Virus record (IMG/VR): IMGVR_UViG_3300023184_000231
Span: 1 to 43,680 of that record
From: a virus
Direction: 5' to 3' (one strand)
Length of the DNA: 43,680 bases
Under the pieces are notes generated by a model. It was not told the DNA's origin and made no database searches. It was given only the letters and a program-made list of their open reading frames with translations. The position numbers and the translations under genes were made by a program. Positions 34,249 through 34,320 of this stretch are shown piece after piece (positions within the stretch are counted from its first letter, which is position 1; each line of letters starts with the position of its first letter).

Positions 34249-34320
34249 TTACTTATTCATGATGTACATTGTAACTTCGAAACCAAAACGCATTTCAGTA
34301 GCCGCTGGTTTTGTCCACAT
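34249..34320 (-). CDS. pqqA: PQQ precursor peptide PqqA
   Basis: A 23-residue peptide. It starts MWTKPA, as in short proteobacterial PqqA, and continues [14 protein letters not shown], so it holds the conserved EVTxY core whose glutamate (residue 15) and tyrosine (residue 19) are crosslinked by the radical-SAM enzyme PqqE to make pyrroloquinoline quinone. SD AGGAG lies 6 bases before the ATG. It is on the minus strand inside a plus-strand operon, so it has its own expression unit. No other pqq gene is present, so the peptide would feed host PqqB-E. PQQ serves periplasmic methanol dehydrogenases, pointing to a methylotrophic host. Confidence 0.9.
   Translation of the reverse strand: [23 protein letters not shown]

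Follow-up and report, generated by a model that had tools for sequence, protein, structure and literature searches.

In viruses of aquatic methanol-eating bacteria, a gene for PqqA, the substrate peptide of PQQ synthesis, is almost always present and usually left unannotated. The case examined here is a 23-codon open reading frame (ORF) in a virus contig, IMG/VR record IMGVR_UViG_3300023184_000231, whose full 43,680 nucleotides are called the window below. In our judgement, this ORF is quite probably a working phage pqqA, i.e., an auxiliary metabolic gene supplying a consumable peptide to the host PqqD/E, by which PQQ-dependent methanol oxidation would continue.

The window encodes a terminase, a portal, a head protein, an endolysin, a Sak-like annealing protein and a RecE/YqaJ-type exonuclease; tRNAs and Rfam families were searched for across the record and none was found. 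Its structural genes, together with the cultured isolates described below, place pqqA in bona fide phage genomes. The two ends of the window (1–5663 and 38536–43680) overlap as diverged copies of one region, with identities of 98.5% over 1–202, 90% over 555–1109 and 78% over 3543–5663. Therefore, the true genome is probably about 38.5 kb, the assembly continuing into a different strain or a recombinant. The pqqA ORF lies antisense between the plus-strand ssb and endolysin genes, in the replication region of the phage, with the following features in and around it:

33977–34219, plus strand: ssb, single-strand DNA-binding protein, neighbour (phrog_18154, E 4e-16)
34202–34229, no strand assigned: palindrome overlapping ssb at its 3′ end, where ssb and pqqA converge, with no T run
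34249–34320, minus strand: pqqA ORF, 23 aa (23 codons plus stop), with the predicted cross-link pair Glu15/Tyr19
34327–34331, minus strand: Shine-Dalgarno AGGAG, 6 nt 5′ of the ATG
34340–34362, minus strand: predicted 5′ leader hairpin GUAUCAAGUAUAUUGCUUGUUAC, −7.1 kcal/mol, z −1.4 when taken alone
34369–34374, minus strand: predicted −10 TATAAT of a dedicated promoter, conserved in the lineage alignment
34396–34411, minus strand: decayed predicted ‘pqq box’ TAATAATTTTACCATA, exactly 37 nt 5′ of the −10
34435–34818, plus strand: cell-wall hydrolase/endolysin, neighbour (PF07486, E 4e-16; phrog_938)

The first-pass annotation had described a minus-strand, 23-codon PqqA with an EVTxY core and an AGGAG start signal. 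Both are borne out, by the exact ORF and by the AGGAG at 34331–34327. The peptide scores 42.4 bits against PF08042 (cut-off 21.1; E 6e-11; profile positions 1–19 of 19) and 40.4 bits against TIGR02107 (cut-off 20; profile positions 1–21 of 21), that is, over the full profiles and at twice the Pfam and NCBIfam cut-offs. The ExxxY spacing for PqqE cross-linking is present in E15 and Y19. Among the PqqA peptides of the Methylophilaceae, which have two commonest sequences, the window peptide is a one-residue variant (Val20 to Ile) of the second. It has the length, the W-x-x-P start and the E-V-T-x-Y core of that family’s PqqA, which likewise occurs as stand-alone orphan copies with a leader hairpin and the same promoter geometry; it differs, apart from residue 20, in being phage-borne and without pqqB-E nearby.

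Relatives of the window were fetched through two neighbouring proteins bounding the exonuclease–endolysin interval, and pqqA was not used as a query. An antisense pqqA is present in 118 of the 121 loci that hold both neighbours and, after collapsing to distinct intervals, at the same site in 94 of 97. Two of the exceptions have no pqqA (L343 and L459) and one has a broken frame (L401), thus the gene is dispensable for some. The 73 distinct alleles differ pairwise by 13350 synonymous and 4964 nonsynonymous codon differences, giving a pN/pS of 0.10 (codon bootstrap 0.04–0.20) and a dN/dS of about 0.07, and the variation lies mostly at third codon positions. Glu15 and Tyr19 are unchanged in all 73, as are Trp2, Pro5, Glu9, Arg11, Gly13 and Thr17; the search expression would also have accepted Asp in place of Glu and either Phe or His in place of Tyr, and no allele has them. 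The remaining two minus-strand frames contain stops in every allele. The retention and the dN/dS both indicate the selective maintenance looked for in an auxiliary metabolic gene. Loss of the frame and of the Glu/Tyr pair in related phages, named beforehand as the sign of a chance frame, was looked for and is not what the relatives display. Judged on this sequence evidence, the window pqqA is a genuine gene and no chance frame, because it is fixed in position, under purifying selection and keeps its Glu/Tyr pair.

The same invariance bears on the idea that the phage peptide is a decoy or inhibitor, which ties up PqqD/PqqE and so stops host PQQ synthesis or diverts SAM/iron-sulfur chemistry. 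Many small phage proteins inhibit host enzymes, the peptide would bind PqqD, and high expression could saturate this chaperone. A decoy, however, should lose or alter the cross-linkable residues, and these are found in every allele of a peptide that is nearly identical to host PqqA; furthermore, one viral contig, discussed below, pairs pqqA with a PQQ methanol dehydrogenase. Such constancy of the modified residues speaks against a decoy, which we consider improbable.

When 50,697 phage records (INPHARED) were searched by tblastn, PqqA was found in ten: P19250A, Venkman, MEP301, MEP401, MEP402, four Melnitz records and the spring phage MW202481. No Methylophilales phage record located in the collection lacks the gene, which sits in several different places, and the 5-kb pqqA region of MEP301 has the pqqA stretch alone in common with other Methylophilales phages. 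The expectation that so small a gene goes under-detected holds for these cultured phages, where the pqqA sites are mostly unannotated or carry only a differently placed ‘hypothetical’ gene. In Melnitz (L202, 2461–2556) and MW202481 (L196, 2067–2195), deposited hypothetical genes lie on the strand opposite the overlooked pqqA. Two further matches (CAKLQF020000010.1 and CAKLQH020000055.1; L203 and L204), filed under ‘Acinetobacter phage MD-2021a’, were set aside as bacterial chromosome, as they contain a pqqBCDE operon and ppk; these records look misfiled.

A search of host genomes and viral metagenomes for PqqA had been proposed from the outset. In IMG/VR, whose contigs are often fragments, two DNA-pattern scans gave at least 201 loci where a PqqA-like ORF is present, one or more of these being spurious matches to the pattern, and pqqA in more than 190 contigs with many unrelated contexts. 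The matches listed form at least 31 gene-neighbourhood groups, at least 14 of which comprise more than one locus; the single-linkage grouping is rough, so that the 31 groups are not a count of events. The neighbours include several terminase types, a T4-type major head protein, gp32-like ssb, RegA, Hsp20, DnaB and DNA polymerase, and many lineages carry pqqA in sense orientation or at other locations. Such varied contexts point to repeated acquisition or exchange of pqqA. There is one pqqA per record in 24 of 24 viral records, and a PqqE above the cut-off in none of 31 whole viral records, therefore the phage brings the peptide only. With an alphaproteobacterial PqqA-type pattern, just 2 of 43 viral loci were genuine PqqA, and thus the many Methylophilaceae-type matches are not pattern noise. 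On contigs of 266 kb and 18 kb from one sample, L481 (4406-) and L503 (2715-) have a Methylobacterium-type PqqA (MKWSAPIVQEVCVGMEVTSY...), with a phage DNA polymerase match near that of L503, which suggests that phages of another group of methylotrophs acquired the gene independently. More divergent viral PqqA, e.g., 23- and 25-residue forms, occur in L018, L024, L004, L013 and L025, with head or terminase genes close by in L024 and L025.

A very short ORF with nearly identical host copies could be a chance frame, or come from assemblies contaminated with host DNA. The fixed position in the relatives and the dN/dS, together with the synonymous divergence among alleles, refute this reading; in addition, the gene is present in cultured, sequenced isolates, and no pqqB-E adjoins pqqA in 203 viral loci, among the matches listed. 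The probability that we attach to it is negligible.

The first-pass annotation also placed the ORF inside a plus-strand operon. The flanking genes are indeed on the plus strand, but pqqA has a predicted minus-strand promoter unit of its own. The −10 at 34374–34369 is a perfect TATAAT match, and in the window lineage this hexamer occurs within 100 nt in 83 of 97 upstream regions, against 12.6 expected from shuffles, with an SD-like motif in all 97. De novo motif searches of the non-redundant upstream regions, 143 from phages and 105 from hosts taken as separate sets, converged on the same inverted repeat, ttTAATGaTTTTcctTAt for phage and TCATGAAATTCaTTAG for host, with log-likelihood ratios of 646 and 499 versus about 58 for shuffled sequence. 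In phages, the −10 stands 37 nt from where the box begins: 34% of the regions match TATAAT there in at least 5/6 positions, versus 3.3% across offsets in general. Host regions carry another half-box 23 nt after the first in 44% (2% or less elsewhere) and the −10 at 60 nt in 43% (versus 1.5%). As 60 minus 23 is 37, the second host box takes the same position as the phage box, and the phage promoter usually has one operator where the host pqqA promoter has two. This box is centred near −41.5 of the inferred start, the site where class II activators bind, and an activator role would fit. The leaders fold better than shuffled sequence, with mean z of −2.4 (phage) and −2.0 (host). As read from these alignments and predicted folds, the pqqA promoters of phage and host have in common an inverted-repeat operator, placed equally far from the −10, and a hairpin in the leader.

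Strict matches to the box number 26 in seven host genomes, 16 of them upstream of pqqA and 1 of pqqB (the backwards pattern gives 4); 20 phage records have 13, of which 10 lie 64–135 nt before pqqA (backwards, 2). Across the host loci L523, L540, L547, L524 and L546, the box precedes pqqB and possibly a KatG-like gene, a TonB-receptor-like gene and a gene for a small exported protein, identified by eye on their first residues; its core resembles a Fur-type box. No described pqqA operator was found in the open-access literature searched. In the window, the left half-site is nearly intact and the right half is gone, and the score alone is not significant. An operator scan of the window with 3 mismatches gave chance numbers, and the remnant is revealed only by its fixed spacing to the −10; the relatives keep TCATGATTTTCTTGTG at this position in the lineage alignment. 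Downstream, the region around the palindrome at 34202–34229 folds at −23.5 kcal/mol (z −5.1), a possible two-way terminator; a terminator scan of the window called none.

These elements raise the question of whether the selected object is DNA or RNA rather than peptide, the operator titrating a host regulator, or the short transcript serving as an sRNA or antisense RNA directed at the ssb/endolysin region. The antisense position in the window lineage and the conserved operator and leader hairpins speak for this. However, variation is concentrated at third codon positions, with a dN/dS of about 0.07, and the window keeps its ORF intact with a decayed operator. Furthermore, many lineages have pqqA in sense or elsewhere, therefore the antisense overlap is not common to all. 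We regard a DNA or RNA role as very unlikely.

On the host side, pqqA was found in 100 of 100 genomes of the Methylophilaceae, with 4.3 copies on average (range 1–12). Copy numbers of 3–12 per single pqqBCDE set have been noted (PMC4109929), and another PQQ-producing methylotroph has five copies with unequal expression (PMC9851590). In an OM43 isolate, xoxF is the most abundant transcript (PMC5120137). PQQ is itself an ingredient of the OM43 culture medium (PMC9004378), where it would mask a shortfall in supply. The presumed partner enzyme is in place as well, full-length PqqE being encoded by 96 of the 100 genomes; the host of the window and of most contigs was assigned from the peptide type and related isolates.

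Methanol dehydrogenase requires PQQ, and one PqqA is consumed per PQQ, the enzymes being reused; thus it is the substrate, rather than an enzyme, that a phage would usefully add. We propose that during infection of Methylophilaceae the host RNA polymerase would transcribe a short, stand-alone minus-strand message from pqqA’s own promoter. In the many lineages whose promoter has the operator of host pqqA, the host regulator of PQQ synthesis would drive the phage gene, as the shared operator implies. Given the near-identity to host PqqA, the 23-aa peptide would be bound by host PqqD, and cross-linked between Glu15 and Tyr19 by PqqE; host PqqF/G, B and C would then trim and oxidise it to yield PQQ. 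The PQQ would keep the periplasmic XoxF/MxaF methanol dehydrogenases charged, maintaining energy and C1 supply until lysis. If the phage let host pqqA messages decay, the substrate would be lost before the enzymes, for which a self-contained, host-controlled pqqA would be a remedy. Substrate supply, as first suggested for this ORF, is thus supported at the sequence level by family membership, conservation, host PqqE and the cultured phages. Counting against it, the window’s own operator is half decayed. The benefit of one extra copy to the phage is assumed, because the hosts already hold several.

A viral contig lends the supply reading a further link. In L551 (G120, IMGVR_UViG_3300025120_009955), a 72-kb contig whose strong PHROG matches support a viral origin, about 6 kb separate pqqA from a PQQ methanol dehydrogenase; bases 32000–44000 also encode a formate dehydrogenase-like molybdopterin enzyme, together with a SoxYZ fusion and a protein with curlin repeats. 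This may be a methanol-to-formate module in a phage.

Cyanophages carry psbA and other photosynthesis auxiliary genes, which supply a consumable, fast-turnover component of a host energy pathway. Phage pqqA is alike in this respect and differs in that PqqA is a modified-peptide precursor, one spent per cofactor, whereas psbA encodes an enzyme subunit. One correction to the first-pass annotation is that viral pqqA had been reported once before, with a viral methanol dehydrogenase, in the Lake Baikal methylotroph virus VP_266, and likewise proposed to support that enzyme (PMC7678222). VP_266 is a single T4-like metagenome population; here, pqqA is nearly fixed in one lineage of small phages and occurs in many further lineages, mostly unaccompanied by the dehydrogenase. 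The OM43-phage literature searched does not mention pqqA as a phage gene. The promoter anatomy common to phage and host is new here, and the open-access literature searched describes neither this host-type promoter nor the near-fixation of pqqA or its occurrence across unrelated phages.

More tentatively, the pqqA ORF could form, together with its operator at about −41.5, its −10 and its leader hairpin, a cassette complete in itself that is exchanged between Methylophilaceae chromosomes and unrelated phages. Phages would in this way plug into the host PQQ regulon, and the traffic might help explain the up to 12 orphan copies; we hold this as a possibility, somewhat against the odds.

Taken together, a near-universal gene of viruses of abundant methylotrophs has been overlooked, because it is 23 codons long. 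Its presence points to PQQ supply, via a single-use peptide substrate, as a limiting need in infection, and opens to testing the question why the Methylophilaceae hold so many copies of pqqA; cultured phage-host pairs exist, e.g., P19250A, Venkman and MEP301, and the shared operator is a handle on the regulator of PQQ synthesis. Since viral pqqA is near-ubiquitous and in many lineages comes with a copy of the host switch, these viruses probably keep host methanol metabolism running during infection, which links viral infection to aquatic methanol turnover.
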